64,000 nucleotides of DNA from Dendrophyllia cribrosa (lineage: Eukaryota > Cnidaria > Anthozoa > Scleractinia > Dendrophylliidae). The notes beneath the pieces are model-generated. The model ran no database searches, was not told where the DNA came from, and worked only from the letters and a program-made list of their open reading frames with translations. Shown piece by piece: positions 5,018-59,975 of this stretch. The translations under genes and the position numbers were made by a program. Each line of letters opens with the position of its first letter. The stretch's first letter is position 1. The stretch lies in contig JAJLRJ010000004.1 in NCBI GenBank assembly GCA_024195265.1, positions 28,036,434 to 28,100,433 on the forward strand, given 5' to 3'.

Positions 5018-5205
5018 TTACTGTTCCTCGCTGAAGCTTGACGCCAAAGGTTGTTTGTCTTCGGAGGTGTGAGTGGGTTGAACTTCGTGTACATCTTGTG
5101 CAATGTCTGGAGTTCCTTGCAGGATAAAATCATTGTCATTTGAGTCTTGTTTCGGAGTTCCTTCCACGCTATTTCTAATTCCATAACCAAAGTAGATGAC
5201 AAATC
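5018..5205 (-). CDS. CAT-type amino acid transporter gene A, last coding exon
   Basis: This exon encodes the C-terminal 62 residues of gene A. On the minus strand the sequence reads tttttttgtag|GATTTGTC, a good splice acceptor with the exon starting at 5205. It begins in phase 1, matching the donor at 9926, so the codon split across the intron is Gly. The peptide opens with FVIYFGYGIRNSVE, the last membrane segment and the Y-G-I-x-x-S-x-E signature typical of CAT transporters. An acidic, polar cytoplasmic tail follows and the frame stops at 5018-5020. The exon was found by looking for the missing C terminus of the large exon upstream. Its homologue in gene B is at 25938-26080 with the same phase. 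Confidence 0.88.
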
Positions 5206-9925: not shown

Positions 9926-11633
9926 CTATGATCATCCAAACTCCGAACCGTACCCACGTCCATGGGGACAACTTGAGAAGAAGAAACATGTTAACAACAA
10001 CGCTGGCGAAAGGAAGGACTGGAATACACGGAACAGTGAAAGGAAATTTCGCATTGTTCGTCGGTTGTAGCTGCATAACCACCACGCCAAAAATGATTAG
10101 AATCCCGAGGAAAACGGCTGTGAATATGGCCCAGGCATCACGGTCCCCTAAATCTCCCCATCCTGCTAATAAAAGAGCACAGAATCCTGCAAGTCCAACA
10201 ACCACCAGCGAAATAGCAGCCGTGGCGATTTGACTTGTGGTGTTGGTAGGTTCTTCCGCGTCCTTAGTGTCTTGTTTGTTCTCGTCTTTGGCACTTTCCA
10301 GGGGCTTGTACTCGGGGCCTTGAGATTCAGGCAGCATCTTCTGACAACATATTACTCTGTAGCTTAGTACAGAGCTTGAGGTGTCTTCATCGTACTCGAC
10401 GTCTTGAACGCCGGGCTGAAACCTCAGAACGAGAACAGATATAGATACGAGGGTGTAGGCAAGTAAAGTGCCAATCGATAGCATTTCAACTAGTTGGGTT
10501 AGGTCCAGCATCAGCGACAGGATTGCTGATAGCACCCCTGCGAAAGCGATTGAGATGATAGGGACGTTTGTGCGTGCGTAGATCCTGGAGAAAAACTTAA
10601 AGAGGAGACCGTCATTCGCCATGGAATACATGATCCGGGGTACGGCGAAAATCCCGCTCATGAGTGATCCTGCCAAGGCACACAACCCTCCAACGGCTAT
10701 CACATATTTAGCTGCGGGGACACCGGCTGCTTTGAAGGCTTCTGGCAACGGCGCGAACTTGTCCAGCTTGTCGTAGGACACCATCAGCGTCAAAATGGAG
10801 GCCACGCCGAAGTAAGCCAGGAAACTGATGATGAGACATAACATGATGGACAAAGGGATGGCGCGCTTGGGATTGATTGTTTCTTCGCTTGCTGTTGCTA
10901 CCACATCAAAGCCGACAAAGCAGTAGAAACAGCTTGCAGCCCCGGCCAAGATTCCTGATACCCCGTATGGGAGGAACTGATGTCTACCGGCCCAGTTGCT
11001 GGGGTTGATATGGAACAAGCCTACAGCCAACACGAACAGGATCACCAGCATGTTGACGGCAGTGACAACTTTGTTGAACATGGCAGAATGTTTGGCACCG
11101 GTAGCAACAACCATGGACACTGCAAGCACGAGAACAAACGCCAGGAAGTCAGGATACGAACCCAAGCCAGAGGCATTAAACGTTCCAATGTTTTCGACGA
11201 AGAACTTTCGAAACACTCCCCCAGCAATGGAGTCAATGTACTCGCTGCTTGCTCTGCCTAGCGAAGCGGTTCCGATCACATACTCTAGAATCATATTCCA
11301 ACCGATTATGAAGGCCCATATTTCTCCCAGAGAAGAATAGATGTAGACGTAGGCCGAACCAGCTTTCGTGATCCGACAACCGAACTCCGAGTAGCAAATC
11401 CCCGACAGGAAAGCAGCAACGGCAGCGATGAAGAAGGACAACACGACGGCTGGACCAGCGACGTCTCTCGCTATCTGCCCTGTAACAACATACAGACCCG
11501 CTCCAACCGTCGCTCCAACCCCAATGGCAGTTAAATCAAACACGTTGAGGCATCGGCGAAGCGGAGAGCTTGAAAGATCATTGTCGATCTCTTTCCGACG
11601 TGTTAGAAGCCGAAGAAATCGTGCGAGAGTCAT
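9926..11633 (-). CDS. CAT-type cationic amino acid transporter gene A, main coding exon
   Basis: The exon encodes residues 1-569 of a predicted 631-residue multi-pass plasma-membrane transporter of the APC superfamily, SLC7A1-4 branch, whose characterised members carry arginine, lysine and ornithine. Family signatures seen are CLNVFDLTAIGVGATVGAG (about 29-46, first membrane segment and substrate loop), GICYSEFGCRITKAGSAYVY (78-97), GEIWAFIIGWNMILEY (103-118, including the conserved Glu104), the DVVATASEETINPKRAIP segment, and the APLPEAF and PRIMYSMANDGLLFKF segments. The length fits CATs. The ATG at 11633 was chosen because the family N terminus starts about 25 residues before the RCL motif. 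The exon ends at 9926 before a GTAAG donor, and reading through gives only a few unrelated residues before a stop. Unlike gene B, no intron interrupts the QLVEMLSIGTL region. I cannot tell CAT1, 2, 3 or 4 apart. Confidence 0.95.
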
Positions 11634-25937: not shown

Positions 25938-26080
25938 TCAATTAGAAATCGACGGATATTCTTCAACTTCTTTACCGAAGTCTGGCGTCTCTGATAAAAT
26001 AAACTGATGGTCTGATCTTTCGTTTGGTCTGACGGCTTCCACACTGTGACTGTAACCATAGCAAAAATACACGAGGAGCC
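25938..26080 (-). CDS. CAT-type amino acid transporter gene B, last coding exon
   Basis: This exon encodes the last 47 residues of gene B. The acceptor reads aattgttgcag|GGCTCC with the exon starting at 26080, phase 1, matching the donor at 38053. The peptide begins LLVYFCYGYSHSVEAV, the final membrane segment and the family Y-G-x-x-x-S-x-E signature, and ends at a stop at 25938-25940. It was identified by homology to the gene A last exon: both have a tail with a DxxFIL.xTPD segment, which strengthens the assignment. It lies about 12 kb from the preceding exon. Confidence 0.88.
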
Positions 26081-29439: not shown

Positions 29440-30315
29440 TATCCACCACGGTATGACCATCAACACCATTGCCCACATGACCATCATACTCACCATAACT
29501 GCTACACAACGACCAGGATTAGTACCAGCGCTACCATCGCCAGCACCATCAACACCATGTTATTTACCACGCCACCACCAACGCCACAACCATCATCACC
29601 ATGTACTCATCATACCTGTCGCCACCACCATCATCATCAGCAACAACATGACCATAATCATCACAACCACCATCATCAACAGCAAGATCATGACCATAAC
29701 CATTACCAATCATCATCACCAGCAAGCTCAAGACCATCATCATTACCACCACCTTCATCAGCTGCAACAGCAACAGCCACATGACCATCAACATTACCAA
29801 CACCTTCATCATGATCACCAGCAGCAAAAACCATGCCCATCATCTTTACCACCACCATCAGCCGCAGCAACCTCATGACCATCATTAATACCATCACCAC
29901 CCTCATCAGCAGGCACATGACCATCATCATTACCACCACCACCCTCATCAGCAGGCACATGACCATCATCATTACCACCACCACCCTCATCAGCAGACAC
30001 ATGATCATCATCATTACCACCACCCTCATCAGCAGGCACATGATCATCATCATTACCACCACCACCCTCATCAGCGGGCACATGATCATCATCTATACCA
30101 CCACCACCCTCATCAGCAGGCACATGATCATCATCATTACCACCTCCCTCATCAGCAGACACATGATCATCATCATTACCACCACCATCATCGGCGTCAA
30201 GCTCATGACCATCATCAATACTACCACCCTCATCAGCAGCAACCACATGACCATCATAATTACCATCACCATCATGTTCAGCAGGAACCACATGACCATC
30301 ACCATTACCACCACC
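29440..30315 (+). repeat. CAT/CAC-rich tract with 39-42 bp minisatellite
   Basis: The tract is built from CAT, CAC and CAG triplets. At about 29885-30232 it forms a regular array of 39-42 bp units containing CCTCATCAGCAGGCACATGA. Long frames run through it on both strands: His/Gln-rich on the plus strand, Gly/Asp-rich (DEGGGG-DDDHVPA) on the minus strand. These follow from triplet repetition, so I do not call a gene. It lies in the last intron of gene B, just left of the transposon. Confidence 0.85.
30237..30315 (+). repeat. 79 bp direct repeat, left copy
   Basis: Matches 37844-37922 at 78 of 79 positions (C against G near the end). The two copies bracket the 7.5 kb transposon. The segment is not part of the regular 39-42 bp units, as ATGTTCAGCAGGAACCAC occurs only in these two places. 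Confidence 0.85.
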
Positions 30316-30321
30316 GTCTAG

Positions 30322-30460
30322 GAGGCAAAATTCAAAAGATGCCTACAAATACAAAAACGTAGCACCCCCTTTACAGAAAAGGTTCGTTGCATTTTTTGGG
30401 TAAAGGGACATCTGAGCAACATTTTCAGGTATGATGTACTAAGGGGAAGGTGGGTCATTA
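30322..30460 (+). repeat. Left terminal inverted repeat of the nuclease transposon
   Basis: Pairs with the complement of about 37690-37824. The best block is ACGTAGCACCCCCTTTACAG; the intervening parts differ by indels. Confidence 0.75.
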
Positions 30461-32174
30461 ATTCGCTACACATAAAAGATTAAGGGTGGGTTTAGCAAAT
30501 CAAGATATTTCTAAAATAGTAGAAACATGAAAACTCTGAGTGTTCAAAGCTTACCAATTTCGTTTAAAAGTTCTATTTTCTTGAGAGCATTATGTTATTC
30601 TGAAATTAATTACACACTGGCGATTTAAACATTTAAAATATTTATAATGAACTTATTTTATCCACCACTGTTGCCATGGTAACCATCGTTTTATAGTTCA
30701 TTATTATAAATATTATTTACACAATTTGTAATTAATGAACATGAATAAAGAATCGTTAACAAAAAAGAGTATTTAAAAAGCCAGATGACACTTCAAAAGT
30801 TTAAATCGCTTTACATATAGAAAATTAGTTGACAGTCTGTTTTTAAATGAGAGAATTAATTAACTCTATTCAGACCGGGCTGTTTTTGGACCTTCTACGA
30901 CGACCGGGGAGGGACTTCAGAGGCCCCAAACTCGTAACTCCAAGAATATTGTTGCTATAACAATGAAACTTTGCCAGCACATAGTACGTCTGAAACTGTT
31001 TCCTTTGACGTCCGCAACTTGAGTTAATGATGTCACATGACGCGGGAATTACGTCATGATTTCTGACTGGCGGCCATCTTGGTTCGCCATCTTGGATTTC
31101 TATAGTTCTCCAAAACCTCAAAAACGCTCAAAATTGATCAATACCCATTAAACACAAATAATAGAGGTAAAATGATCTAAAGTGTTGAATTTACGATGAA
31201 AAATGGAAAAATACCCATTAAAATTGAAAGAAAACTGAAATTTTGAAAAACGTGCCTGTCAAAATACGGTTGCCATGGAAACGTCAAAAATGTTCAACGA
31301 GAGACAATAATGTCAAAATGTTTTCAGGTAAATTTTGGGAAAAGTCACCAAATTTGGTGGTTATAACTTTGACGGTTTTGAATTTATGCATGTTGAAAGT
31401 TGGTGGAGACCTCAAAAGAAACCAATCCCCCACCCCCCCACCCTCCGTCGCGGTCTTGACACTGATTTCTTTGTAAATAACGAGTAAAGCTCTTTTCCCT
31501 AATACTAGCTAACACACTGAACAAATATTTTTACCAGAAGCTAATTCAAAGAACATACCTCTTTTATTTAAGTGGAAAACCCCCTAAATTCAGCATATTG
31601 AACTTCGTTTTCCTAATTTGGAAACTAAAACCACAATGCATTGCGGCCTTTTTTGACCATGCTATGGAGGCGTCCATGTTGGATGGATATTTGCTTTTCA
31701 GTCAAGGTAAAATGAATATTCATATAGTTTATGAACTTATGAAACATTTTTTTTTTCAACTTATTTTTACACCTTTGTAACGTTATAATTAGTCTCAATT
31801 TTAAAGAGCAAAATAAGAAGCTAAGAGAGTTGTTTTTCTCCACGTTTTTTTAAAACAAATTGTGCTAGTAGAGGAAATTAAACAGAGTCTGAGTCTTAGT
31901 TCTGAGTCTCAAATAGGAGGAGCAAATGAATTTTCATCGTTTTTTCATACTTTTGCATCATTTTTAAAATTACAATTATTCTATTTTACTCGCTCACAAG
32001 AAGTTTATAAACCCATTAAATACATTAAAAGAATTTTCACTGGAAATCACTCATAAAATTTGCCTAGCCTTTAATCATCAACGACACGGTTGATTACATG
32101 TATCACTATGAACTAAGCGTTTTGTTAATAGCCTAATTTGTAATTAATAACAGGAGGTATCACCATAAATCACT
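30461..32174. other. 5' subterminal region of the transposon
   Basis: No coding frame. Two X-box-like palindromes lie here, GTTGCCATGGTAAC at 30670-30683 and GTTGCCATGGAAAC at 31269-31282. A splice acceptor-like sequence (taattaataacag) at about 32138-32150 precedes the gene start, so a 5' non-coding exon is possible. Confidence 0.5.
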
Positions 32175-35100
32175 ATGGAAGATGAAGAAACCCTGCTGCT
32201 ACTTCCTCCTAAGCGGCGCAAAATCATTAACTGGTCAAAGTGTTTAATTTGCCAAGTAGATGGCAGTGAAGCTGTAAGACAGGGAACAGAAACGGGGATT
32301 AACGCGTTTACTGCTGCTTGTAGGCAACGGAAAGATGACGTGTACAACAAAATTTCTAAAGATTTAGAGCGTCTTTCAGAGTTTCAAGTTGTTTGGCATG
32401 GCAAGTGCTATCAAAGCTACACAAGTAAGCGGAATCTAAGCTTCGTTAAACCAAAGCCTCTATCATACCTATCCTCTTCCCTGCCTAATGAAACAAGTGA
32501 ATCGCCAGATGAAAGGATATCAAGATCAAAGGTGGACTGGGGACTGTGTATGTTTTGCCAGAAAAAGAAGCACCATGGAATCAAGGATTTGTGCAATGTT
32601 TGCACATTTGATGCGTGCAAAACTATTGAAACTGCTGCAGAACTCAGGGGTGATGAAGTGATGATGATTCGTATAAAAGGCATCGACTTAATTGCTGCTG
32701 AAGCGAAGTATCACAAAAGTTGTCACTCACAGTATGTCAGTAAATCGAACTTGAAACAGCAGATTTTCAAGGAAAGCAACACACAGGAAGAAAGTTTGTA
32801 TGTCAAGGCCTTCCAAAAGATAGCAAGTGACATACAAGCGGGAATGGCTAGAGGAGAGGCGTATGATATGCAGTCCTTGCTAACACGTTTTAAGGTGGCA
32901 CTGAGGGAACAAGATGTGGCGATAGCAGATAGCTACAGGAGCGAGAAACTAAAACGAAGACTTCAAAATTATTTTGGAGATTCACTCGTCTTTCACAAGC
33001 AAAACGATCCATCAAAGCCTGAATTAATATACTCAAGCCACATCTCTTTAAAAGAAATTATCAACGCTGCTTCTAAATCACTGAACACCTCAATGTCAAC
33101 TTCAGCAATTCCAACCACGACTGATGAAGATTTAGAGAAGAAACAGACGCTGTACCACGCGGCACAAATCATCAAGGCAGAAATAAAGAATTGTCAGGGA
33201 ATCGAAATACAGCCATTAGCTGCCGAGGAACTAACTCTGAACAGATCAAAGGCCCTTATTCCTGCCAGCTTAATGAAATTTCTTTCGTGGGTGATAGCTA
33301 GACAAAGTAGTAGTGATGATGTGGAAGTCACAGCAAGCCTAAGTGAAGCTGACGAGAGGCATGTGGTCATGATAGGTCAAGACATTCTGCACTCAGCAAC
33401 ACATGGAAGAATCAAGACCCCCAAACATGTTAGTTTAGCCATGTCGATTCGTCACCTGACTGGATCAAAGCAGCTAATTACCATGCTCAACCGTATGGGA
33501 CACTGTTCTTCGTATGATGAAGTTGAGGCTGTTGATACAAGCCTTGCAATGGAAGTTTTAGCTAAGTCGGAGACAATGGGAGTGATAATACCATCTAACA
33601 TTGTTCCTGGTGGATTTATACAAGCCGCTGCGGACAATAATGACATAAACGAAGAAACCCTAGATGGGAAACAGACAACCCATGCTACAACCATTGTTCT
33701 GTTCCAGCGAGGTCAGTTTGGTCCGTTTCCAGAACCAGTGAAGCTTGCAAGTCACTCTATAAGGAAACGAGCCCTCTCAGGAACATCCGTTCTTCAGCCT
33801 ATTTCTGAGTGTAGCGTTTATGGCAGGCGTCCGTCTGTTGGCAGCTTCCTCAACAAGGTTGACAAAGGCTGGTATGAGTGTAATGTTCGTCTTGATTCAG
33901 AAGCTCAAGAGAAAGACATGGCTTGGACTCTTCTTCGACAATGTTCCACTACGTTGTTCCAAGTGGATCTTGCCTCAACACAGTCAGCACCTTGCCTGGT
34001 TCCTGGATGGAGTGGTTTCAATGCTGTTGTGTCGTCTTCAGCTTCACCGTTAACCAACATTGGATATTGTCCGATGATTGCCGGTCCATCAACGGAGTAC
34101 AGTACCATCTATACAGTGATGAAGAATGTACACAAGATGACCACCAGTCTTGGACAATCCCAAAGTGTGATAACGTTTGATTTAGCTATTTATATGAAAG
34201 CTAAGGAGATCCAGTGGCGTTTTCCTGATGAGTTTAAAGACATGATAATCCGTATGGGAGGGTTTCATATCGCATTGAACTACCTTGCGGTCATTGGAAA
34301 GCAATTTGAAGACAGCGGGCTTGAAGACTTGCTGGTAGAATCAGGTGTGTTTGGAAGCAACACTGCATCAGTCCTTCTCAAAGGAAAATCGTACAATCGA
34401 GGAGTACGAGCTCACAAGATTGCTGCAGAGGCAATGCAACGGCTGCAATGGCAGGGGTTTAGCAAATGGCTGGCGGAAAAGAACGTTGTCGCCCCGGAAG
34501 AAGAAGAGAGAACCTTGCACCTCATTCAAAAGTGCCGAGCATCATTTGCAAAGAAGGAGCCAGTACAACCGAGTTTTCAAGCTCTTTGTGGTGAGATGAG
34601 TAGCCTTTGTGACCTTCTTAACACTTATCAAGACGAGAGCAGAGCTAAATCATATTTGTTTTATTTCTGGGACTCTTACATTCAGATGGTCCAGTTGTTA
34701 CTCCGCTACATTAGAGCTGAGAGAGAGGGGTCGTGGCCACTACACCTCTCAGCAACTGCTCAGATGGCTCCCCATTTCTTTGCAATGGACAGAACCAATT
34801 ACGCAAGATGGTTGCCAGTGTACCTTGGGGACATGCACCAACTTTCAGTGAAGGCACCCGAAATCCATCAAGAGTTTATGAACGGAGGTCATCCTGTTAG
34901 CAGGTCCACTCAGCCATTTGGCCAAGTTTGGACAGATATGGCCCTCGAACAGAGTGTAAATATGGACAGCAAGTCGAAAGGAGGGATTGTGGGGATATCT
35001 TTGAAGCCCAGTGCACTTGAACGGTGGTTCCTCACCGTTCATGAAAGAGCGGCCATCACTACCCGTGTTAAGACTATGTGCAACATGGGAGAATGTGAGG

Positions 35101-37002
35101 TGTCTGCTCACAAAAAAACTGGAAGCCGGCGTCATGCAAGAGATGAAGAAGATGTTCAAAAGATGATGACTACCCTAACAGCAGTCATGACCAACCCATT
35201 TGACCTTGATCATGCTGATGATGGTGAAGTTGTCCCTTTGTTGAACCTAGCCACTGGAGTTGTGATGCCTGATGATGGTGCTTTGCGGCTGGTAAGCGCA
35301 CAAAAGGAAGGAGAACAACACATGAAGGATTTTGTGGACAAGCGACTGAACACAAATACAGTTCGTTTCTGGGACTCTCTTCCCCGTCTAAACATTAAGA
35401 CATTCAAGTCATTGTCTAAAAAGAAAGAAATCAAAGCAACTGACGAGAAGATTCAAACAGTTACTGCCGATCGTGATCTGTTTGGTCGCCTTCTTATTGC
35501 TGCAAATTCGCGCGATGTCAACTTGCGCGAAGTCCTATCCTATGAGCTTTCCACTGTCCCTTACAGTCTTGCTCATGCTGATGGTACGCTGAGAAAATCG
35601 ACAAAAAGCGTCTTGCTGGCAGAGTTGGAACGGACTGTGAAAGTTGAGCCAAGAATACCTACCAACAGCAACGCACCTGCCACGGCTCATATCATTGATG
35701 GAATGGCATTAGTACAGATGCTCAAGTCCGGTGGTGCAGCTACTTTTGGAGACCTAGCTGACAAGCACTATGACATGATCACTTCACCGTACAGACAACC
35801 TGGCTGCAATAGAGTAGACATTGTCTTTGACCGTTATGACAGAGTCCAATCGATCAGGTCTGGAGAGAGGGAAAGGCGACGTCCTTCCAACCACTCAGTA
35901 GAGGTGAAGATTAGCGGATCAACTACTCCCATCCCGAAAAAAATGGAACACGTTCATAGCCTTCCAAAAGAACAAAGCCAATCTTACAGATTTTCTGAGC
36001 AACAGGTTATGTGAGCTTGCACAAAGGAAACTGCACCACGGTCAACAGCTCATTCTTGCTGGTGGATTTAGAGATGAAGAGAAAGCTGTTCTTGTCAGAG
36101 ATGGATCCTCTATTACTCTGGAACCTCTCAAGGCAAATCACGAGGAAGCTGACACTAGAATGTTGCTGCACGCTAAGCATGCATCTCTAGACCATGGAAG
36201 AGTCATTGTCCAATCACCAGATACTGATGTCCTCGTCTTGTGTACCTTTTTCTTCACATCCCTAGAAGCTGAGCAGTTGTGGTTTAAAACTGGTGTTAAG
36301 GACAAAGTTCGTTACATTCCTATTCACCAGTTGGCAGCATCTTTGGGAACAGAAACCACCGAATTGTTACCTGGATTCCATGCCCTTACAGGGTGCGATT
36401 CAACAAGTGGAATCAGTGGAATCGGAAAAAAGAAGGCTTGGAAAGAGCTTCAGAAGACCCGCTCGACAAACCAAGAAATCAGAGAGCTTGGCGATACTGT
36501 GCCACCATCAGAGAATACAGTGGGGGTGTGTGAGAAGTTTCTTTGTTCTATTTACACCAAGGCTACGAGAGCCGGAACAACAGCAGATGAAATAAGATAT
36601 TGGATGTTCTGCCAGAAGAAGCAAAGGAACGAAAGTCTGCCACCCACAACAGACAGCCTCAGACAGCACATAGAGAGAGCAAACTACCAAACAGCAGTAT
36701 GGAAGCAATCCCTTCAAGGAATTGTGGACATACCACCCCCTGTTGGTAATGGATGGTCAGTTACAAATGGCCATTTAGAGCCCACACTAATGTGTAAAGA
36801 CCCAGCACCCGTTGGCCTTCTTGAATTAACCGCCTGCAAATGTGAGAAGTCAGCTTGCAAGAGAACTGATTACTGTATGTGCAAGGCCAACGAGCTCCCG
36901 TGTACTGAAGCGTGCCGGTGTATGGGGGACGATGAGTGCGAGAATCCTCACAAAGTTTACATTGATGATGACGTCAGCGAGGATGATGATGAAATTCAAT
37001 AG
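32175..37002 (+). pseudogene. Transposon protein: zinc modules, putative transposase core, FEN1/XPG-like nuclease; one frameshift
   Basis: The gene is intronless. Two frames (32175-36014 and one running through 36160-37002) join if one base of an A7 run at 35937-35943 is discounted, giving about 1,608 residues. N-terminal residues hold two similar modules, each C-x2-C ... [WY]H-x2-C-x3-Y (CLICQ/WHGKCYQSY and CMFCQ/YHKSCHSQY). The middle has an Asp-rich AADNNDINEETLDGKQTTH (about 485), TFDLAIYMKAKE (about 664) and GGFHIALNYL with a Glu-rich stretch (about 695-722), possibly an RNase H-like DDE core. The C-terminal third matches FEN1/XPG nucleases: HIIDGMALVQML, VFDRYDR..SGERERRR, HEEADT, SPDTDVLVL and GCDSTSGISGIGKKKAW. 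A tail of Cys pairs (CKCEKSACKR...CMCKA) ends it. A nuclear role in element excision or integration is inference. Confidence 0.8.
35937..35943 (+). other. A7 run at the frame break
   Basis: In the 5' frame the run is read AAA AAA A(TG) and leads to a stop at 36012-36014. Coding similarity resumes at once in the frame reached by skipping one base. That is a +1 shift; the usual -1 slippage on A runs would give the wrong frame. A homopolymer length error or a real inactivating insertion are the likeliest causes. Confidence 0.85.
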
Positions 37003-37689
37003 CTATGTTTTAATGCAGTCGAAAGTTCTTCTGTTTCTTATTTAACAGTTATTAATGTAATACACTTGGAAAACATTTGTCACCTTTTCTTTGATATAGA
37101 ACTCCATGCAATTGTTGAGATTGGTCCCCTTAGCAACCATTGCTATGGAAACGAACAGCTTAGAGTATTGTTGTCAGCTGCATTGACAAGATACACAATG
37201 TGTCAAATTTCCAAAAGAAAAGGATGAGCACTGTACCCAATGTATGAACTAGTGTACAACCAGAAGCAAACACTAGAACGTCACTAGGAACAATGTAAAT
37301 TATTTCCTCATCCGATTCTGTAAATTGTTGAGGGACATATCTATTAAGATATCGATTTAGTCACAAGTAATGTAACAGGGTCCTGTCTTCTCAAGACATA
37401 TGGAGCAAGAATAAACATTGAGTTTTGAATATTTGGTCCATAAATGCCGATTTGGAGGGACAAATAAAGAAAAATATAGCCCCTTAGCAACCGTTGCCAT
37501 GGTAACGCACAACTCAGAAATTTAAACAGTGATACAATGTTACTGTTGACATAAACACTGTGTCCAAATTTCATAAGTAATGGGTGGATGTATCTCGAGA
37601 AATGATCAGTTATCTATTAAAAGAAGCCCTATCCGGTTTCATATACACTTGATTATAGACCCCCACCCCCTAACAGAAACATTCGCTCA
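37003..37689. other. 3' subterminal region of the transposon
   Basis: It contains two related segments of about 90 bp (37125-37215 and 37478-37578), each starting CCCCTTAGCAACC. Each includes an X-box-like palindrome, ATTGCTATGGAAAC at 37139-37152 and GTTGCCATGGTAAC at 37493-37506. No coding frame. Confidence 0.6.
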
Positions 37690-37824
37690 GCCAATCACTG
37701 ACCCCATATTTTGGTAGTACATCATCCCTACAAATATTGCTTAGGTATCAGCCTATCATATTATGAAGCCAAACCTTTTCTGTAAAGGGGGTGCTACGTT
37801 GGCTATCTCTACCAGCTCTGCCTC
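37690..37824 (-). repeat. Right terminal inverted repeat of the nuclease transposon
   Basis: Reverse complement of about 30322-30460, ending TGCCTC before CTAG. Shares the CTGTAAAGGGGGTGCTACGT block. Confidence 0.75.
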
Positions 37825-37843
37825 CTAGACTAATCATCATCAT

Positions 37844-37922
37844 CAGCAACCACATGACCATCATAATTACCATCACCATCATGTTCAGCAGGAACCACAT
37901 GACCATGACCATTACCACCACC
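37844..37922 (+). repeat. 79 bp direct repeat, right copy
   Basis: Same segment as 30237-30315 with one mismatch. It is followed by more CAT/CAC-rich sequence to about 37970, the continuation of the minisatellite tract on the far side of the transposon. Confidence 0.85.
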
Positions 37923-38052
37923 ATAATCATCAGCAGCAGCCCTATGACCATCATTATTACCACCAACATATAAATATATATATAAAACAAAACCAATAAC
38001 TAAAGAAACTATGTTGCGGAGAACAAAGAAATCCATATTAGCACCAACTCAC

Positions 38053-38626
38053 CCAAAGCCATCCAAACGCTAAATCGAATGTAGGTCCAATGATTTAGCA
38101 TCACCAGCAGTAGGACGTTGAAAAATATTGTAATGGCTGGAATGACTGGGACTCCTGGAACCATGAACGGGAATATGGCGGAATTTTTTGGTTGCCTGAT
38201 GATAAACATCAAAGAGGCGACGATTATTAAGCCAAAAATGCAGCAAAGAAGAATCGCCCAGGCTTCTCTTCGACCCAATTGTGAATGAGTACGAGTAAGG
38301 CAAATCGTTAATGCTGTTATGGATAAAGTCAGCACAAATGCACCAACGCGAGCCCGAAAACTTGTGTTTTCATCTGGTTGCCTTATGCTTGAGGGTCCTT
38401 CATCGTTGCTTTGGACCTGTTGATAGCTGATCTCTGGAAGAATTTCATCTTTGCTATCTGTTTCGCCGGGGCGGCAGCAGATCGTGTTCAGCCATCTTTT
38501 GGTTGTCTCCTTGGTTCCATCTTTTTCCAATGTGACACTTTGAACTCCAGGTGTGTAACGAGTCACGAGTACAGAAATTGCTACCATTGTGTAAGCCACA
38601 AGTGTGCCAATGGACAACATCTCAAC
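38053..38626 (-). CDS. CAT-type amino acid transporter gene B, second coding exon
   Basis: This exon encodes 191 residues of gene B. The acceptor reads gattttgttttcag|GTTGAG with the exon starting at 38626, phase 0 after the exon 1 donor at 39872. The peptide begins VEMLSIGTLVAYTMVAISVLV, homologous residue by residue to the uninterrupted gene A exon, and continues through a long polar loop and four further membrane segments (SITALTICL, LLCCIFGLIIVASLMF, FPFMVPGVPVIPAITIFFNV, WTYIRFSVWM). The exon ends at 38053 before GTGAGT, phase 1, at the same point as in gene A. The PFMVPGVPVIPA segment is a family signature. Confidence 0.93.
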
Positions 38627-39871
38627 CTGAAAACAAAATCCAGGATTTCAGTGAAACTATGGTGATGCATGGTGCATGGTGGTGTTAAAATCCTCACTCG
38701 TTGATACAACTCATTTGTGTCTCAGCTGTGTCTGTGTTGTCCAGTAGGAAAGGGCATTAGGCACCAGCCTAACTCAGGCAACTTAAGGCATGACTCACTG
38801 GCTTACTAAATTAGTTCTATTTGAGGAGGAAGGTTTTGCTTAATCTTATTGAAAATTTCTCGGAAGCCTTAATAATACAACATATTCTTGAAGTTCAAAT
38901 GCTAGTCATGTGACCTGTAATTGTACGTTAACGGTTAAAATCTTCAGGGTAAAATGAAGAACATAAAATCAAATTCAAGTAAATCTTTTTGGGTACTTAT
39001 ACTTTACTTCTTTGATGCTTGTTAGCCTTGTATGCATGTCCAAGCTTAATAGCAATGATGTAATTAATTAAGATAGGTTAGTGACTTGCGAAATGCTTAA
39101 TAACTTCTAATTCAAATTATAGATACTACCTTACATATTAGGCATAATAATATTGCTTACACTTAATTTAATAATTTAATACCAAATAATTTCAAAATTA
39201 CGGTGTGTAACCTTTCCTCATTTAGAAAAAAGGCATTTCGTGACGTTACTGAAAAAGAAATGTCACGTGATACCAACAAATACTCTCATATGATTAGTCT
39301 AGTCAGGAGTAAATCATGCTAGGTCCATCGAACTATGATGTTAATTTTATTGATGGATGATATAGATTTCTAAGTTTTCCGCGAGGGATCTTATTGAGCT
39401 TCTTACACTTACCTTAATTTGCCTAAATTAGGTGCATCGTACATATACCTTAATCCTACGGCAACTAAAGGTACCAAACTATTAATCTATGATATGCAAA
39501 GAGCAGGAAACCTGCCAAAAGGGAACACATGGCATTTTTCCCAGTCCGAGAGAAGAAAGTAATGATGGTGATGATGATCCTAGAACTAAACGAACACGGC
39601 TGGCTAATTTAACATAAACATTTATTAATTTTTTTTAGCGAGGAGCTCCATTCAGGAAAGGGATAAACGTAACTTGCCAATTGTCTTACGTCCAGTAAAG
39701 ACGTTACCACACTGGCGTTACGTCTAGTAACGCCAGAATTGCGATTTAAACTTCATCAACCAAAGTTGTTTGAACCGGAACTTTCGTTGAAAAAGTTATA
39801 ATTTGGGAAATTCTCAACAATGCCCCCTTAGAAAAAAATGTGGCTGAAAATTTCGATAAAAAAAAACTTAC
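38627..39871 (-). other. First coding-region intron of transporter gene B
   Basis: About 1.25 kb, GTAAGT at the donor (39871) and TTTTCAG at the acceptor. Gene A has no intron here. Apart from the decayed exon copy at 39689-39793, no recognisable feature is seen. Confidence 0.85.
39689..39793 (-). pseudogene. Decayed copy of the end of gene B exon 1
   Basis: On the minus strand the sequence after 39793 parallels the last ~26 codons of the functional exon: KVPVQTTLVDEV here against KVPVRATLVDGV in the exon, then the shared IAILALL. A stop codon follows DEV, a roughly 30 bp insertion disrupts the DVKQL end, and the donor is GCAAGT instead of GTAAGT. It lies about 80 bp beyond the functional donor, in the same orientation. 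In vertebrate SLC7A2 this protein region is encoded by alternative exons, but the present copy cannot be used as it stands. Confidence 0.8.
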
Positions 39872-41011
39872 CAATTGTTTAACGTCCAGCAGTAACGCCA
39901 GAATTGCGATCAAGACTCCATCAACCAACGTTGCTCGGACCGGAACTTTCGTCTTCTCATGCACATGCGCAAACCAGTTGAACAGCAAACCATCGGACGC
40001 CATGGAGTATACTACGCGTGGGGCTGCAAAGGAGTTGGTCAACAGTGTACTCATTGTTGCGCATAATCCTCCAGTTGCCACGATGTATTTTCCGCCAATA
40101 AATCCACGCTGGGCGAAGGCTTCAGCCAGAGGAGCGAACCGGCTCAGTCGATCATAAGGCAGTATGAGCGTAAGAACTGTGGCGACTCCAAAATAGGCAA
40201 GGAAACTGATCGCAAGGCTTAAGATGATCGACAGTGGCACTGAACGCTTGGGATTTACAGCTTCTTCGCTCGCTGTACCTATGACGTCAAACCCCACAAA
40301 GGCATAAAAGCAACTTCCCGCTGCTGTCAGAACTCCGCCCACTCCGTACGGGGCAAATTTCGATTGCCAGTTCTTTCCATCGACAAAGTATAATCCAGCG
40401 CAGATGATGAAGGTGATGACAGAAAGGTTTATGAAAGTCATCACTTTGTTAAACACGGACGATTTGTGCGCACCCAGCGAGACTATGGCTGCGAAAATCA
40501 AGGCCAAAGCCATGGCTAAGAAATCAGGAAAACTTCCTAGGGCTGGAACATTCCATTTGGCGATGTATTCCATGAAAAACTTGTAGATATATCCTTGGGC
40601 AAAGGAATCGATGTACTCGCTACATGCCCGTGCGAGGGTTGCAGCCGCGATCAGATATTCTAGAATCATGTTCCAACCCACAACGAAGGCCCAGAACTCT
40701 CCAACAGCCACATAGGAGTAGACATAAGCAGATCCAGCCTTAGGTATACGACAGCCAAACTCCGCGTAGCAAATCCCAGAAAACAGTGCGGCTAATCCAG
40801 CAATGAAGAAGGAGATAATAACTGCTGGTCCTGCAACGTTACGAGCCAACTCCCCTGTGACTACATACAGCCCTGCACCGACTACGGTGCCCACCCCTAA
40901 GGAGGTGAGGTCCAGGGTGGTGAGACATCTTTTAAGGGGGCTCTCCGAGAACCAGTCTTCTGCTTGTTTCCTCCGAGTTAAGTTGCCGCAAACTTTGGAG
41001 CAACTATTCAT
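39872..41011 (-). CDS. CAT-type cationic amino acid transporter gene B, first coding exon
   Basis: The exon encodes residues 1-380 of a predicted 618-residue CAT transporter, paralogous to gene A. Signatures include KRCLTTLDLTSLGVGTVVGAG (about 27-47, split by the substrate loop), GICYAEFGCRIPKAGSAYVY (79-98), GEFWAFVVGWNMILEYLI with Glu105, DVIGTASEEAVNPKRSVP and PRVVYSMASDGLLFNW. The start at 41011 (MNSCSKVCG) is preferred to the upstream ATG at 41038. A strong acceptor, ttttatttttcag|ATATG, lies between them, indicating a 5' untranslated exon further up. The exon ends at 39872 before GTAAGT, phase 0, joining QL to VEM in the next exon. Reading past the donor gives unrelated residues. Transport of arginine and lysine across the plasma membrane is the family role. 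Confidence 0.94.
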
Positions 41012-41790
41012 ATCTGAAAAATAAAATTGCATTGTCATTTTTAAATATTTAATAAAGGAAAATTGTGGCTTTCTTAACCAGGATTAGTAATAGCGGGATT
41101 TACTTATTTCTGTCCCTGGCTAAATGCTGCTAATACATGTAAAAACAGATCTTTGGTACTTCAAATTTCAAACAATGAACCCACGTAGTGGCATCAAATC
41201 GCTATCATTTTAGCTTTCCCTATTCAAACTATGAATTAGAAAACAAATCACTGTGAAAGGGTTGGCCAACTTTAATTTTATCCTTGGATCTAAGCTATGT
41301 AGTTGAAAAAACATTAAGGCTTAATCAGTGTTTAATAAAGAAGAAATCGTTCAGTTAATGGCTCAGTCACTTCCAAGCTTGACATCACTCTTTCAGTCGA
41401 TGGACAACAATATTCATTGCATGTGATGATGAATCTGTAACTGACCGATATGAACAGAACAAATTGTCATTGGAAAAAATATACTGAACCTTGAAGGTTT
41501 TTCAGGTTGAATTTCTAATTCTAATTCTAATAAATGCATTATTTATTTAAATATTCCCCAATTGTCGTTAATTTTGATTTTCAAAGAGTAATTTAAAACT
41601 CAGTAATTTTCAGAAAGTTATGCAGGTAAATTACTGACGTAACGCCCCCACAAATAATCAGTTTGGTATTGCTTTTTATTTAGCTCTGCGTAGACATCAA
41701 CATTTCATGTTATTTCGCATGCTACTGATTCATAAAATTGCATGCAGTTTAAAACTATAGTGGGATTCCTTTTCAATCAACAAAAATATC
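41012..41790. other. Upstream region of gene B, no gene recognised
   Basis: It begins with the polypyrimidine tract and acceptor of a 5' intron (41014-41028). The 5' untranslated exon and promoter of gene B were not located. Confidence 0.5.
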
Positions 41791-50529: not shown

Positions 50530-53500
50530 ATGACGAAGAAGAGGAGATCGGCGACAAATGCTTCCAAAGGCGCCGATCGTGCAAGATCGCACGTGACTCA
50601 GCGAAAAGAAAAAGCGGCCGAACCGGTAAAGTCGTCGAGTATGGACACGTTTCGGAGCGACAAGAATGGTGGAAACGGTGAATTATTGCCATCATTGCCC
50701 GAAGGAAACGTGGATATGGCCTTTGTTGACGAAAATCCGCAAGACCTTAATGGCGTATCAAGGCCATCAAGAGTGAAAGTGCCGAGCACGTGGAACGAAC
50801 AAGAAGTGAATGCCGAGAAAGCTGTACAGGCGAAGCGACAGCGAGCTGGGCATATTGGTGAACTTCGAAAACGGCGAAATCAAGTACACGAATTGCTAGC
50901 AAGTCCAGATGTTGAAGTGAAAGAAGTGGAAGAGAGTGTTGCAAGGTATGAGGCAGCATTTCATAACTTTGTTTGTAGTCATGATAATTATCTTCTCTAC
51001 GAAGACGACGAAGAGAAGAAAGAGTTCATGCTTGACAGTTACAATAATCAAAGAGACATGACGTTGCAGTTAGATATCCTAGTCAACAATTGGAGAGCTA
51101 AAAGGGAAAGAATGAACAGACTCCCATCTGAGTCTGGCTTTAGTCTTAAATCTGCAAAGAGTGACAAGAGTTGTGCCAGTAGAAATAGTGTTAAAGAGAA
51201 GAAGAGATTGATGGAAGAAACCAGGTTAGAAATGCATGCCCTGCAAGAAAAGCAAGAACTGCAACGTGAAATAGAAGAGGTTGAAAGGAGGAAAGCGGAG
51301 TTGAGCAGGAAATTAGAGTTATTGGATGCCAAAACGAAAGTGAAGCATGCTGAGATTGACTTGTTCATAGAGCAAAGTGTAGAAGATGAAGGAGGGGATG
51401 GGATGAATGATTATCTTAAGGAACATTATGCTCGTGGCCCCACCCGTGAAGATCCTTCATTGCAACTTGATGTAAACAGTGCCACACCCATCTCAAAATC
51501 ACACCCAGTCAAAAGTCATGGGGCTATGTCAACATCATTTGTGACACCTACTTCTGCTCAGCCTCAAGTCCCTTTGTCATCGACCCGAGAAACTGTAAGG
51601 CCACCACCGATAATCACCCTCTCCTCAACGCCTCGTATGGTTGCAGTAGCTAGCAGTAAGACATGTTCAGATGATTTGGCTGATGCAGGACTACCACCTA
51701 ATAGTTCTAAGGATAATGTGACTGTCAGTTCTGTGCCTCACCTCGTGCATCAGAAGATCTCACCTGAAATTGTTAGTGCCCCTGGGCCATTGTACACCTT
51801 TGCTGATCTGACGCCAATAAGGAATCAATCGACACCAGGAACGTTTACGCAGTCTTGTAGTCCACAGACTACGTGTTTGAATGCAAAGTCAACAGAGTTT
51901 TACCCAGGGAACACCACACAGCAGGCCACTTTCCCTGTGGTACGTCACCCATGGTCATCACCTCAACAGCGTAGCAGCCTCCAATCACAGCAGTCCGATG
52001 CTTGGATAACTATTGCGCAAGCGATTAAGCAAGGTCCATCCTTGCCAAAGGTTGAGTTAATGAAGTTCAGCGGCGACCCCTTGGAGTATGCAGAGTTCGT
52101 CACAAACTTTAGAGACAACATCGAAAGCCAAGTATCTGATGAGTCGCAGAGACTCACACGCCTGCTTGCGCAGTGTACAGGGAAAGCTAAGGAGGCGATT
52201 AAGAGCTGTGTAAATCTGCCAATTGGTTACAAGTACTCTGAAGCGTGGAAGACCCTTCATGAAAATTTTGGCCAGTCTCACATGATCGTAGAAGCCCATA
52301 TGAAGAAGCTAAGAGATATACAAGTGCGTAAGGCTGATGCATCAACTCTCATGGATCTTGCACGGCGGCTGGAAGATGCGAGACGAGTCTTGACGAGTAT
52401 GGGGAGTACTTATGCAACTCGCTTGGACAGTGAAGATGTGATCGTTATGTTGATGAGAAAGCTTCCAGATGAAAGTCTGAAAAGAAAGTGGGCAGACAGA
52501 GCAGGGGACCTCATCAAGAGTAAAGGCCAAGCAGAATACATAGATTTTGTTCGCTTCATTAAGAGAGCCGCAGAGCGCATTAACAATAGATATGGACAGG
52601 AACTGAAGTTGCCCCCAACCAATGACAGAGAAAGAAAGGAACCTGGAAAAGGAAAATCAGATTGTTCACCCAGATTCACAACATTGGCAACTCAAAGTGA
52701 GGACAGTCAGCAGAGCTCAGGCACATCATCAGGGATCCCCCAAAAGTGTCCGCAGTGCTCAGGTCCCCACGGAGTCTGGAGGTGTCGAATATTTAGGAGC
52801 TCTTCATTAAGAGACCGACTTAAGACTGTGCGACAGCACCGACTTTGTAGAGTGTGTCTTTCAGAAGGTCACAGTGCGAAAAATTGCAAAAGGGGCTTCA
52901 CTTGTGGAAAGGCAGGTTGTCGAAAGGACCATCACTATCTGATTCATTCTGATGAAGGAGACAGCAAAGAGAATGAAAGTCAAGCTAATGCAGTACAAGG
53001 TGCCAGGAGCAACGGCGTAGTAGATAGGTCTGGCACAGAACCTCTCAACGTGTCAGAGAGGACGACTGCGAAAGTGAACCCAGTTCCCCCTCCGACAGTT
53101 CATGGTTCCACTTCATCATCCAGTCATCCTGTTACAGTCAGTACTACCAGAGCTGGTAGACCGAGAGTATGCTTTAAAGTTGTCCCGGTGAAGATTAGTG
53201 CTCAGGACGGTGCCAAAGAGATAGTCACCTATGCATTTCTGGACAGTGGGTCTGATGCAACATTTTGTGTCGAAAGTCTGGTGGAAGAGTTAGAATTGAT
53301 GGATATGAAGCCAACCACCTTTACGATGACGACGGTTAATTGTGAAGAGAAAAGAACCGGTCATGAGGTGCAGCTAAATTTAGAATCTCTTGATGGAGAC
53401 GTGAAGTTCCAACTTGACCATGTCTTGACTACAAGCAGTCTTCCAGTTACGCCAAAGCATATGGCAACTAATGAGGAAATAAAGAAATGGTCTCACCTTG

Positions 53501-56500
53501 ATGACATCATTCTACCAGAGACAGGAGATAGGAAAGTGACAATCTTAATAGGCAGTGATCGTCCAGACATAATTGACAAGCAACTAGACAAGAGGGAAGG
53601 AGAACATGGCCAACCTTCAGCCGTGAAAACACCCCTTGGATGGACTGTTTATGGACCGATCGGAAACTCTGCAGATGATCAAGTCCATGTAAGCTTCACC
53701 CATACTGAGCAAGAAATTCTGAATGCACAGTTGGAACGCATGTATGATGAGGAGTTTAGTGACACAAACAGAGGTTTAGAAGAAGGCATGTCAATCGAAG
53801 ACCATAAAGCCAAGGGAATCATGGATCAGTCTGCGACCCTAGTAAATGGGCACTACCAAATTAAACTCCCGTTCCGTCAAGAATTTCCAAACCTTCCTGA
53901 TAGTCTGCCAACAGCAGAAAAGAGACTGACGTGGTTGAAAAGGAAGATGCAGAGAGATCCAGCCTTTCACGCCAAATACAGCAGTGTTGTGGAGAAATAC
54001 GGAACCGAGGGTTCGTCCAGACAGGTGCCAGATGAAGAGGTTCCTAAACTGGATCCAATCTGGTATCTCCCTCACCACGCAGTATGGCACCCTAGAAAGC
54101 CAGAAGAACCAAGGGTAGTTTTTGATTGCGCCTCCAAGAGTGGTGGAACGTCATTGAATGAACAGCTGCTGCGAGGGCCCGAGAACACCAGCACCCTGAT
54201 CGGAGTAATTCTCAGATTTAGAGTGGAGGACATAGCAGTCACGGCTGATATAAAGAGAATGTTCCACCAGGTGTACGTGGCACCGGAAGATAGTGGAGCG
54301 CTGTGTTACTTGTGGTGGCCGAATGGGGACCTGTCAAGAGAGCCAAAAACTTACCAGATGCTTGTACACATTTTTGGTGCGAAGTCCTCGCCAAGTGTAG
54401 CAGGATATGCCCTTAGAAAGACAGCTAAGGACAACAAGCACGATTTCCCACAAGAGGTAGTTGATACTGTGTTTAGAGATTTCTATGTGGACGACCTACT
54501 TAAGTCATTTGCTGATTCGGGAGAAGCTGTGGCCCTCAGCATACAGCTACAAGAACTGCTTGCGAAAGGGGGCTTTCAACTCACAAAATGGAATTCGAAC
54601 TGCCGTGATGTCTTGTTAGCATTCCCAGTTGAAGAAAGAGCTCCGCACATTAAGGACTTGGATTTAAAATCCGACAGTTTGCCTCTGGATAGAGCGCTTG
54701 GTATCCATTGGGACGTGGAACGTGATACCGTCAACTTCGTGTTTGATAAAGGACAACAGCCAGAGAATCGAAAGGGAGTGCTGTCCTCGATTGCGACTGT
54801 GTATGACCCACTTGGATTTGCCAGTCCGTTACTCCTACCGGGAAGAGAAATCAATCAGGAACTGTGTAAACTAAAGTTTAGCTGGAATGATAAACTTCCA
54901 GAAGAATTGAGTGTTCGTTGGAGAAGATGGAGAGAAGGCCTTATGTCCTTACAGGACTTCAGTATTCCACGTTGTTTCAAGCCAGGAAGCTTTGGCGATG
55001 TTGTACGGGTAGAGCTTCATCATTTTGCTGACGCGTCTCAAGAGCATGGTTATGGGACAGCCTCGTATTTGCGTCTCGTCAATGATCAAGGACAAATCCA
55101 TTGTAGTTTTGTCATGGGTAAATCCCGCGTGAGACCACTGAAGGGTGCAGTGACCGTGCCAAAGTTAGAACTGACGGCAGCCACCTTAGCGACCCGGATT
55201 AACAAAGTTGTGAGGAAGGAACTAGAAGGAAGACTGAAGATCGACAGTATCACCTTTTGGACTGACTCAATGATAGTCCTCAAGTACATTGCTAATGAAT
55301 CGCGAAGATTTGTCACATTTGTCGCCAACAGAGTTGCTGCTATTCGCGAAGAATCAGAACCGAGTCAGTGGCGTCATGTTAGATCGGAACTTAATCCAGC
55401 AGACTATGCCTCTCGAGGAATCAAAGCCTCAGAGACAAAGAAACTAGATATATGGAAGAGTGGTCCAGCGTTCTTATGGAAGGACAAGGAAGAGTGGCCT
55501 CCACAGCCTGAGGAAGTCTTAGATGGTCTCCTGGAAAGCGATGAAGGAGTAAAAAGGGAGAAGATTACGACTGGAGCGGCCGTTGTACAGAAGGACTTCT
55601 GGAGCTCCATGTTCGAGCGGTATTCAGAATGGGACCGGCTACGAAGAATAGTCGCATGGCTCATCCGTGTCATCTGTGCCTTCCGCATGCTCGTGCGTCC
55701 TCGACCACAGACTGAAGATAAGGGGAACTTGAAGAGGAACGTAAACCGCGGTCCTACACTATTGGCAGTACCAGGAGGACGACTGAAGCATTCAGATTTG
55801 CAGTACGATGCCAAGTACCCGATGATTCTGCCAGGAAAACACCCAGTTACGGAGATGATAATCCGTCATTACCACCATATGAATGGACACGTTGGAAGTT
55901 ATCAAGTGCTAGCCGAAATAAGACAACGCTTTTGGATCGTCCGTGGAGTCTCCTCAGTAAAGCATGTCCTGAGGAAGTGCCATGTTTGCAGACGCCAGAA
56001 TGCCAAATTAGGAGAACAAGTAACCGCACCGCTCCCAGTAGTTCGAGTGTCGTCGGACAGTCACAGGATCATCTATCCATTTGCAGCAGTAGGACTTGAC
56101 TATTTTGGTCCACTTTACGTTAAGAATGGGCCTAACACAAGATCAAGGAAAAACGCAACCTTGAACAAGCGTTACGGATGTATCTTCACATGCTTAAGAT
56201 ACCGAGCTGTACACATAGAAGTAGCTGAAGACCTGACCACAGACAGCTTCATAAACGCAGTTCTGCGCTTCGTTGGTAGACGAGGCCCACCAACAGTTAT
56301 CTACAGTGATAACGGTAGCAACTTTAGAGGAGCAGAAGTGGATGTTGTCCGAGCGTTGCAAGCGTGGGATCAGGAGAAGATTCAAGCGACATTGACCCAA
56401 CGGGGTATCGAGTGGAAGTTCAATCCACCGGCAGCCAGCCATCAAGGGGGAGTGTGGGAGAGGCTCATACGTTCTGTTAGGAGAATCTTGTACTCGCTGG

Positions 56501-57027
56501 TTGGAGAGCGCCTTCTAAGTGATGAAACCTTAAGAACATTTCTAGTCGAAGTGGAGAAGATTCTAAATGATAGGCCGATCACACCTGTTTCAAGTGACCC
56601 GCAAGATTTAGAAGCACTAACGCCGAATCATATTCTCCTGTTGCGAAGAAATCCATGTTCTCCTCCAGATGTGTTTGATGAAGCAGATCAATTCAAAGCG
56701 AGATGGAAATTCGTTCACCTACTTGCAAACCAGTTTTGGCACAGATGGACCAAGGAATACTTACCGACGCTCCAGGAGCGGCAGAAGTGGCTACGCCAAC
56801 AGCCCAACTTTAAAGTAGGGGATTTGATCTTGATAGCAGACAAGAACACGCCTCGTGGGCAATGGCCAAAAGCATTGGTAAAGCAGGTACTTCCAGACAG
56901 CGAAGGCATTGTACGCCGAGTAGTCGTTAGAACAGCGGATGGAGTTTATCACAGAGACGTGCGAAAACTGTGTTTGTTGGAAGAGAAGTTACTAAGTTGC
57001 ATTGAAGAACAGGTGAACCAAGTGTGA
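50530..57027 (+). CDS. BEL/Pao gag-pol polyprotein, 2,165 residues
   Basis: The domain order is that of BEL/Pao. There is a charged coiled-coil N terminus (about 60-300) and a low-complexity Ser/Pro region. A DUF1759-type gag core follows (about 505-640, with VELMKFSGDPLEYAEFV). Next are Cys/His knuckles (CPQCSGPHGVWRC and CRVCLSEGHSAKNC, about 738-795) and a DUF1758 aspartic protease (FLDSGSDATF, about 903). The reverse transcriptase has TADIKRMFHQV and YVDD (about 1317), and RNase H has HHFADAS and FWTDSMIVLKY (about 1576). The integrase has an HHCC-type zinc region (HHMNGHVGS...CHVCRRQ). Its DDE core is GLDYFGP, SDNGSNF and the Glu of WERLIRS (about 1856, 1926, 1975). A C-terminal DUF5641-type segment has FWHRWTKEYLPTLQERQ. 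No stop or frameshift interrupts it, so it could be active. The ATG at 50530 is the first after the LTR. Confidence 0.97.
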   Translation: MTKKRRSATNASKGADRARSHVTQRKEKAAEPVKSSSMDTFRSDKNGGNGELLPSLPEGNVDMAFVDENPQDLNGVSRPSRVKVPSTWNEQEVNAEKAVQAKRQRAGHIGELRKRRNQVHELLASPDVEVKEVEESVARYEAAFHNFVCSHDNYLLYEDDEEKKEFMLDSYNNQRDMTLQLDILVNNWRAKRERMNRLPSESGFSLKSAKSDKSCASRNSVKEKKRLMEETRLEMHALQEKQELQREIEEVERRKAELSRKLELLDAKTKVKHAEIDLFIEQSVEDEGGDGMNDYLKEHYARGPTREDPSLQLDVNSATPISKSHPVKSHGAMSTSFVTPTSAQPQVPLSSTRETVRPPPIITLSSTPRMVAVASSKTCSDDLADAGLPPNSSKDNVTVSSVPHLVHQKISPEIVSAPGPLYTFADLTPIRNQSTPGTFTQSCSPQTTCLNAKSTEFYPGNTTQQATFPVVRHPWSSPQQRSSLQSQQSDAWITIAQAIKQGPSLPKVELMKFSGDPLEYAEFVTNFRDNIESQVSDESQRLTRLLAQCTGKAKEAIKSCVNLPIGYKYSEAWKTLHENFGQSHMIVEAHMKKLRDIQVRKADASTLMDLARRLEDARRVLTSMGSTYATRLDSEDVIVMLMRKLPDESLKRKWADRAGDLIKSKGQAEYIDFVRFIKRAAERINNRYGQELKLPPTNDRERKEPGKGKSDCSPRFTTLATQSEDSQQSSGTSSGIPQKCPQCSGPHGVWRCRIFRSSSLRDRLKTVRQHRLCRVCLSEGHSAKNCKRGFTCGKAGCRKDHHYLIHSDEGDSKENESQANAVQGARSNGVVDRSGTEPLNVSERTTAKVNPVPPPTVHGSTSSSSHPVTVSTTRAGRPRVCFKVVPVKISAQDGAKEIVTYAFLDSGSDATFCVESLVEELELMDMKPTTFTMTTVNCEEKRTGHEVQLNLESLDGDVKFQLDHVLTTSSLPVTPKHMATNEEIKKWSHLDDIILPETGDRKVTILIGSDRPDIIDKQLDKREGEHGQPSAVKTPLGWTVYGPIGNSADDQVHVSFTHTEQEILNAQLERMYDEEFSDTNRGLEEGMSIEDHKAKGIMDQSATLVNGHYQIKLPFRQEFPNLPDSLPTAEKRLTWLKRKMQRDPAFHAKYSSVVEKYGTEGSSRQVPDEEVPKLDPIWYLPHHAVWHPRKPEEPRVVFDCASKSGGTSLNEQLLRGPENTSTLIGVILRFRVEDIAVTADIKRMFHQVYVAPEDSGALCYLWWPNGDLSREPKTYQMLVHIFGAKSSPSVAGYALRKTAKDNKHDFPQEVVDTVFRDFYVDDLLKSFADSGEAVALSIQLQELLAKGGFQLTKWNSNCRDVLLAFPVEERAPHIKDLDLKSDSLPLDRALGIHWDVERDTVNFVFDKGQQPENRKGVLSSIATVYDPLGFASPLLLPGREINQELCKLKFSWNDKLPEELSVRWRRWREGLMSLQDFSIPRCFKPGSFGDVVRVELHHFADASQEHGYGTASYLRLVNDQGQIHCSFVMGKSRVRPLKGAVTVPKLELTAATLATRINKVVRKELEGRLKIDSITFWTDSMIVLKYIANESRRFVTFVANRVAAIREESEPSQWRHVRSELNPADYASRGIKASETKKLDIWKSGPAFLWKDKEEWPPQPEEVLDGLLESDEGVKREKITTGAAVVQKDFWSSMFERYSEWDRLRRIVAWLIRVICAFRMLVRPRPQTEDKGNLKRNVNRGPTLLAVPGGRLKHSDLQYDAKYPMILPGKHPVTEMIIRHYHHMNGHVGSYQVLAEIRQRFWIVRGVSSVKHVLRKCHVCRRQNAKLGEQVTAPLPVVRVSSDSHRIIYPFAAVGLDYFGPLYVKNGPNTRSRKNATLNKRYGCIFTCLRYRAVHIEVAEDLTTDSFINAVLRFVGRRGPPTVIYSDNGSNFRGAEVDVVRALQAWDQEKIQATLTQRGIEWKFNPPAASHQGGVWERLIRSVRRILYSLVGERLLSDETLRTFLVEVEKILNDRPITPVSSDPQDLEALTPNHILLLRRNPCSPPDVFDEADQFKARWKFVHLLANQFWHRWTKEYLPTLQERQKWLRQQPNFKVGDLILIADKNTPRGQWPKALVKQVLPDSEGIVRRVVVRTADGVYHRDVRKLCLLEEKLLSCIEEQVNQV

Positions 57028-59945: not shown

Positions 59946-59975
59946 TTTATTTCAAAATTATAGTAAAAATTATAG

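Follow-up and report, generated by a model that had tools for sequence, protein, structure and literature searches.

The locus studied here raises three linked questions: whether the long gene lying between inverted repeats in the window (the whole 64-kb stretch of DNA analysed, positions 28036434-28100433 of contig C17 in a 627-Mb assembly of 22 contigs) belongs to a mobile element, what kind of element this would be, and what the C-terminal domain of the encoded protein is. The host gene around it is marked by three features:

25960..26080, minus strand: last-exon candidate of the transporter, place approximate, a reading frame with LLVYFCYGYSHSVEA near 26072
38009..38620, minus strand: frame with a host transporter exon (AA_permease_C, PF13906, E 2.5e-12), adjoining the intron
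39746..41038, minus strand: transporter frame with an AA_permease domain, from a domain match

Since the AA_permease frames and the last-exon candidate are all on the minus strand, the element appears to lie antisense to an SLC7-type amino-acid transporter gene, within its last intron, and the placement in a transporter intron made in an earlier note is supported by these reading frames. Indeed, a donor-like GTGAGT directly follows the coding part of the frame 38009-38620. Another last-exon candidate, near 5197, was rejected as lying beyond the sister transporter gene, whose frame is at 9903-11633. Searches with blastn and tblastn found no further copies or fragments of the element elsewhere within the 64 kb. 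The element itself comprises the following features:

30316..37832, plus strand: whole transposon, 7517 bp, left tip without its first two bases; from independent insertions and the tip pattern
30316..30327, plus strand: left outer tip GTCTAGGAGGCA, where TAGTCTAGGAGGCA is expected from the C18 and C16 copies and the right tip
30356..30384, plus strand: inner inverted repeat, left arm, 29/29 complementary
32175..36014, plus strand: transposase gene, first frame, 1279 aa, with 117 homologues listed
32241..32408, plus strand: Cys/His module 1 (C23, C26 ... H75, C78), from conserved columns in 25 sequences
32547..32723, plus strand: Cys/His module 2 (C125, C128 ... H180, C183), from invariant columns in 25 sequences
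34029..34958, plus strand: central part, presumed DDE/D core, from the PF20231 (DUF6589) match in divergent relatives (P0066, E 1.1e-9)
35682..36446, plus strand: putative FEN/XPG-like nuclease domain, split by the frame break, borders approximate, from conserved acids, with EXO1 and PolA in register at non-significant scores
35937..35943, plus strand: A-run, place of the frame break, from the sequence and the comparison of copies
36832..36945, plus strand: candidate Tesmin/TSO1-type CXC zinc module, C-terminal (PF03638, E 9.4e-4, 19.9 bits against a cut-off of 23.5)
37772..37800, minus strand: inner inverted repeat, right arm, 29/29 complementary
37819..37832, minus strand: right outer tip TAGTCTAGGAGGCA, read inward, with ATC outside; from copy comparison and the tip pattern

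Terminal inverted repeats had been described before, and they are indeed present, in two parts: an outer tip is separated by dissimilar sequence from the perfect inner repeat of 29 bp, to which a 35-bp inverted repeat at 80% is added in the window element. The outer tips read GTCTAGGAGGCA on the left and TGCCTCCTAGAC(TA) on the right, the TA of the tip being missing at the left end. The same reading, TAGTCTAGGAGG, is shared by the left end of the C18 copy, the right end of the C16 copy and the right end of the window element, and the right end of the C5 copy is altered at the tip. Independent insertions give borders at 30316 and 37832, so that the interval first delimited was 6 and 8 bases short. 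The tips start with TAG, and the CTAG that had been placed at both tips falls inside them: it is neither the tip itself nor a target duplication. A 4-bp target duplication CTAG was rejected because GT/AC adjoins it at 4/4 ends from three insertions, and because the relatives have 3-bp duplications and a border at TAG; moreover, TA is still found farther out at three of these four ends. A genome search with a pattern combining tip and inner motif returned 18 places, and the reversed pattern used as a control returned none. The end structure is not due to chance.

The gene had been described as a single intronless one. It is single and intronless (32175-37002), but it is split over two frames by a break in the A-run, the second frame holding the rest of the nuclease part. 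The encoded protein would have roughly 1630 residues in total; apart from these two frames, none longer than 104 aa is found in the element. The near-full C5 copy has an A-run of different length at the frame-break site, but its stops lie elsewhere. Homologues, 117 of them listed and with full lengths of about 1600 aa, occur in several animals, the sources including Actinostola, Exaiptasia, Nematostella, Porites, Oculina, Branchiostoma and Holothuria, and one bacterial bin, where the homologue is taken for host contamination. For the alignment, 24 homologues of 1479-1662 aa were joined to the first frame of the window, giving 25 sequences.

The central domain, which is DUF6589-like, is presumed to be the DDE/D core. 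The conserved acids of the protein include D487, D669, E752 and D921, found in all 25 sequences, and E925, found in 24. PF20231 (DUF6589) was matched by 7 of the 31 relatives in a Pfam scan (best E 1.1e-9), and the match in P0066 was mapped onto residues 619-928 of the window protein, whose first frame itself has no Pfam match. This family has 102 matches in the element's own genome and 0 in 14 control genomes; our literature search found no mention of DUF6589. Behind the nuclease, a Tesmin/TSO1 CXC module is seen in 16 of 41 relatives, at E-values up to 1.

Is the C-terminal domain a flap nuclease? The motifs named in the earlier note are all present, and their acids are invariant or nearly so over the 25 aligned sequences. 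Eight of them follow in order: D and D, each in 25/25 sequences, then E 24/24, E 24/24, D 24/24, D 23/24, D 24/24 and D 24/24, the last six being counted over the 24 homologues, as the first frame of the window ends before them. We take them to correspond, in order, to the catalytic acids of FEN1; on this footing, the ordered catalytic acids of the FEN/XPG family are present. The likeness to FEN1, XPG and EXO1, and to the PolA 5' nuclease, further includes the VFD...S..ER..R motif and the GCD plus GIG loop. However, compared with FEN1, the stretch between the second and third acid motifs is longer here, and, unlike FEN1, XPG and EXO1, the domain is fused to a transposase, with a similarity below significance.

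Were the domain another metal nuclease, or a PIN fold devoid of flap activity, it would resemble FEN in its motifs only, and several of the profile results would suit this reading. In three solved-structure searches, made with overlapping profiles that share members, Exonuclease 1 recurs as 4/7, 4/4 and 4/5 of the matches, at best E-values of 0.77, 0.82 and 1.4, below significance, and in two of the three it is outscored by the chain 1ml8 (E 0.48 and 0.5). The match to 1ml8, near the HEEAD motif, is short and was judged to be chance despite the better score. The best match in the 4/7 search, lin-54 (E 0.05), concerns the CXC module. The search for XPG_N and XPG_I that had been proposed gave no Pfam match in the window or in the scans of 31 and 41 relatives; the best 5_3_exonuc_N match (E 0.055, in 2 of 41 relatives) and the 5_3_exonuc match of the window (E 0.16) are not significant, no FEN family is listed in the NCBIfam and PHROGs scans, and no nuclease was matched when the window's own C-terminal part was compared with the PDB. 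One of the 41 relatives also matches phrog_4161 (E 6.6e-5), for which no function is given. Against a resemblance in motifs only, Exonuclease 1 is the sole solved-structure match of profile A4 (four sequences), and with profiles A4 and A5, which share members, its VFD...RR and GCD...GIG stretches align in order, the VFD stretch alone scoring below zero. PolA falls in register at E-x-D, D-x-D and the GIG loop; the comparison gave P 0.49 with one PolA sequence and 0.037 and 0.021 with profiles, and 2 of 100 column shuffles exceeded the PolA profile score. A nuclease of another kind thus seems unlikely to us, and the sequence argues, with good confidence yet statistically short of proof, for a FEN-type nuclease. 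The FEN1/XPG assignment made earlier stands for the catalytic positions, whereas no profile reaches significance.

Other copies, which the earlier note had proposed to look for, were found in the genome: a near-full copy and two end fragments belong to the same family. The C18 copy retains the left 2.2 kb (97.4%) and the C16 copy the right 321 bp (98.8%); that on C5 is nearly full, 95.7-96.9% identical in three pieces, with a 357-bp insert and an N run on its left side. More widely, a protein search of the same genome gave 41 match rows, the window and 40 further ones at 31-96% identity, from 36 scored of 1044 first-look candidates, some rows being pieces of one locus. Three paralogues have frames of 1580, 1587 and 1612 aa with no stop in the match. 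Terminal inverted repeats were found in the window, L038/L039, L045-L047 and L050. A second family (L038 and kin) carries 260-bp inverted repeats with tips TAGACTAAGAGG and TAGTCTAGGAGG; four of its copies, at different loci, are 98.5-99.6% alike pairwise, and two more match at 99.5-99.8% over pieces of 0.6-1.9 kb. In L045, the copy examined for this, the gene is interrupted by an intron of some 0.7 kb, bounded by GT and AG, which is absent from the corresponding site of the window gene; three other copies show the same two-frame layout as L045. Among viral contigs, the search for close relatives gave 2 pattern matches, neither of them confirmed.

Both ends were examined in the window and at eleven loci selected among the protein-search rows, twelve in all. 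Both tips are readable in eight of the twelve, and all eight are flanked by perfect 3-bp duplications (TAA, ATA, CAA, AAT, AAA, CCA, TAG and AAG). They represent three families: six copies of the second family, L047 and L050. Among the divergent relatives, no inverted repeat was found at L048 or L049, and L051 has inverted repeats but no visible duplication. The window copy, whose left tip is damaged, has no readable duplication of its own; its right flank starts with ATC, and its left flank would fit a 5-base deletion that removed the duplication and the TA. One end only was found for each of the divergent relatives L028-L031, which therefore give no information on duplications. With other copies, common tips and 3-bp duplications in eight relatives with two readable tips, the identification as a transposon holds.

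Academ elements are among the less studied eukaryotic DNA transposons, and the AcademX lineage of the superfamily was reportedly described by Kojima in 2020. Our literature search found no paper joining Academ with XPG, and a single one naming AcademX. Academ is listed among the superfamilies with a DDD/E transposase in PMC9587614, and PMC10294476 reports its amplification in bivalves, with a mean length of 5565 bp. According to PMC10045372, duplications are of 3 or 4 bp in AcademX and of 9 or 10 bp in AcademH, a difference tied to the nuclease of the former and the helicase of the latter. AcademX is the best filing because the probable nuclease and the 3-bp duplication fit the traits given there. 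The transposon is long, like AcademX, has 3-bp duplications in its relatives and would share the nuclease and the DDE/D core, and the comparison, which is one of described traits, brought out no difference. AcademH may have the same transposase core; in contrast to its helicase and its duplications of 9-10 bp, as given in PMC10045372, the eight readable relatives have 3 bp here, Pfam scans, one of 31 relatives and one of 41, list no helicase family, and the element holds no other long frame.

A separate superfamily, in which a DDE/D transposon had fused a nuclease of its own independently, would agree with a comparison made with described traits and no reference alignment, and with a first frame that has no Pfam match. 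Against it, nuclease and 3-bp duplication are the very trait pair given for AcademX (PMC10045372), and DUF6589, matched by 7 of 31 relatives, links the element to a wider group that has many copies in this genome. We give such a separate origin a small chance. This is most probably a cut-and-paste DNA transposon of Academ type, of the nuclease lineage AcademX; the Academ-with-nuclease reading of the earlier note agrees with this trait pair (PMC10045372), in a comparison of described traits. A host gene, namely a domesticated transposase, as the long and nearly open reading frame could suggest, is highly improbable in view of the frame break, the inverted repeats, the many paralogues and the target duplications of the relatives.

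How might such an element move? Binding of the two-part ends would fall to the pair of N-terminal Cys/His modules, perhaps together with the CXC module at the C terminus. The DUF6589-like domain, presumed DDE/D, would cut these ends and join them to the target at positions staggered by 3 bases. The FEN-like nuclease could then trim flaps or tidy the single-strand gaps left by cutting or joining, and may thus act in excision or integration. With a broken reading frame and a damaged left tip, the window copy is probably inactive, although the assembly may contain a base error in the A-run.

The insertion sites offer one lead. Using Tandem Repeats Finder, we found the insertion point inside a tandem array in 5/15 cases, namely at 4 of the 9 two-sided and 1 of the 6 one-sided sites, the call at L039, among the two-sided ones, being weak (1.9 copies). 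Arrays make up 4.1% of the window outside the element, and 8.6% of the 35,465 bases in twelve arbitrary 3-kb stretches, half of it from a single stretch. At 8.6%, the binomial P is 0.0066 for 5/15 and 0.034 for 4/15 without L039. As the test was unplanned, the choice of sites non-random and the background limited in size, we keep this excess as a lead. It is conceivable, if doubtful, that the FEN-like nuclease takes part in transposition and sets the short stagger of 3 bases, where the helicase lineage has 9-10, and that the elements prefer tandem-repeat arrays, whose unusual DNA structures would offer flaps.

In conclusion, the element belongs to a known type of transposon, for which this genome gives clean evidence on ends and target sites. 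Because one family is present in at least six copies that are 98.5-99.8% identical and whose ends and target duplications can be read, what the fused nuclease does becomes testable in a cell assay.

Family 2, a transposon family related to that of the window element, has probably moved recently. Six copies, each with both tips and 3-bp duplications, are 98.5-99.8% identical and have inverted repeats of 260 bp; an intron is present in the copy examined (L045).

Family 2 copies in the D. cribrosa assembly (G000)
C18:735570-743225, L038
C21:23019876-23027499, L039
C12:51505318-51512979, L045
C21:35709420-35716722, L046
C18:48251078-48258720, L040/L041/L044 (one copy)
C12:203272-210849, L042/L043 (one copy)

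Tandem arrays contain the insertion point at 5 of the 15 sites surveyed, versus about 9% of arbitrary sequence. These sites are those of L038, L042/L043, L053, the window element (array at window 29622-30315 and 37833-37969) and, weakly, L039. In the near-full C5 copy of the window family (L027), a 357-bp insert at L027:6818-7173, whose ends are short and look inverted by eye, is perhaps a small non-autonomous element.

The window also holds frames of retroelement type. An uninterrupted 2165-aa frame of BEL/Pao type (50530-57027) encodes Peptidase_A17, DUF5641, DUF1759 and Integrase_H2C2 domains. A large inverted repeat at 57855-61530 consists of a pair of frames that resemble reverse transcriptase, run in opposite directions and have nearly identical residues along most of their length; the RVT_1 test covered only the first, and by eye the type is Penelope-like, with a GIY-YIG tail.

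DUF6589 (PF20231), which is without a name in Pfam, is multi-copy in this genome, with 102 matches. One 1023-bp match recurs in five copies that all have the same score, so further DUF6589 families also look recently amplified.
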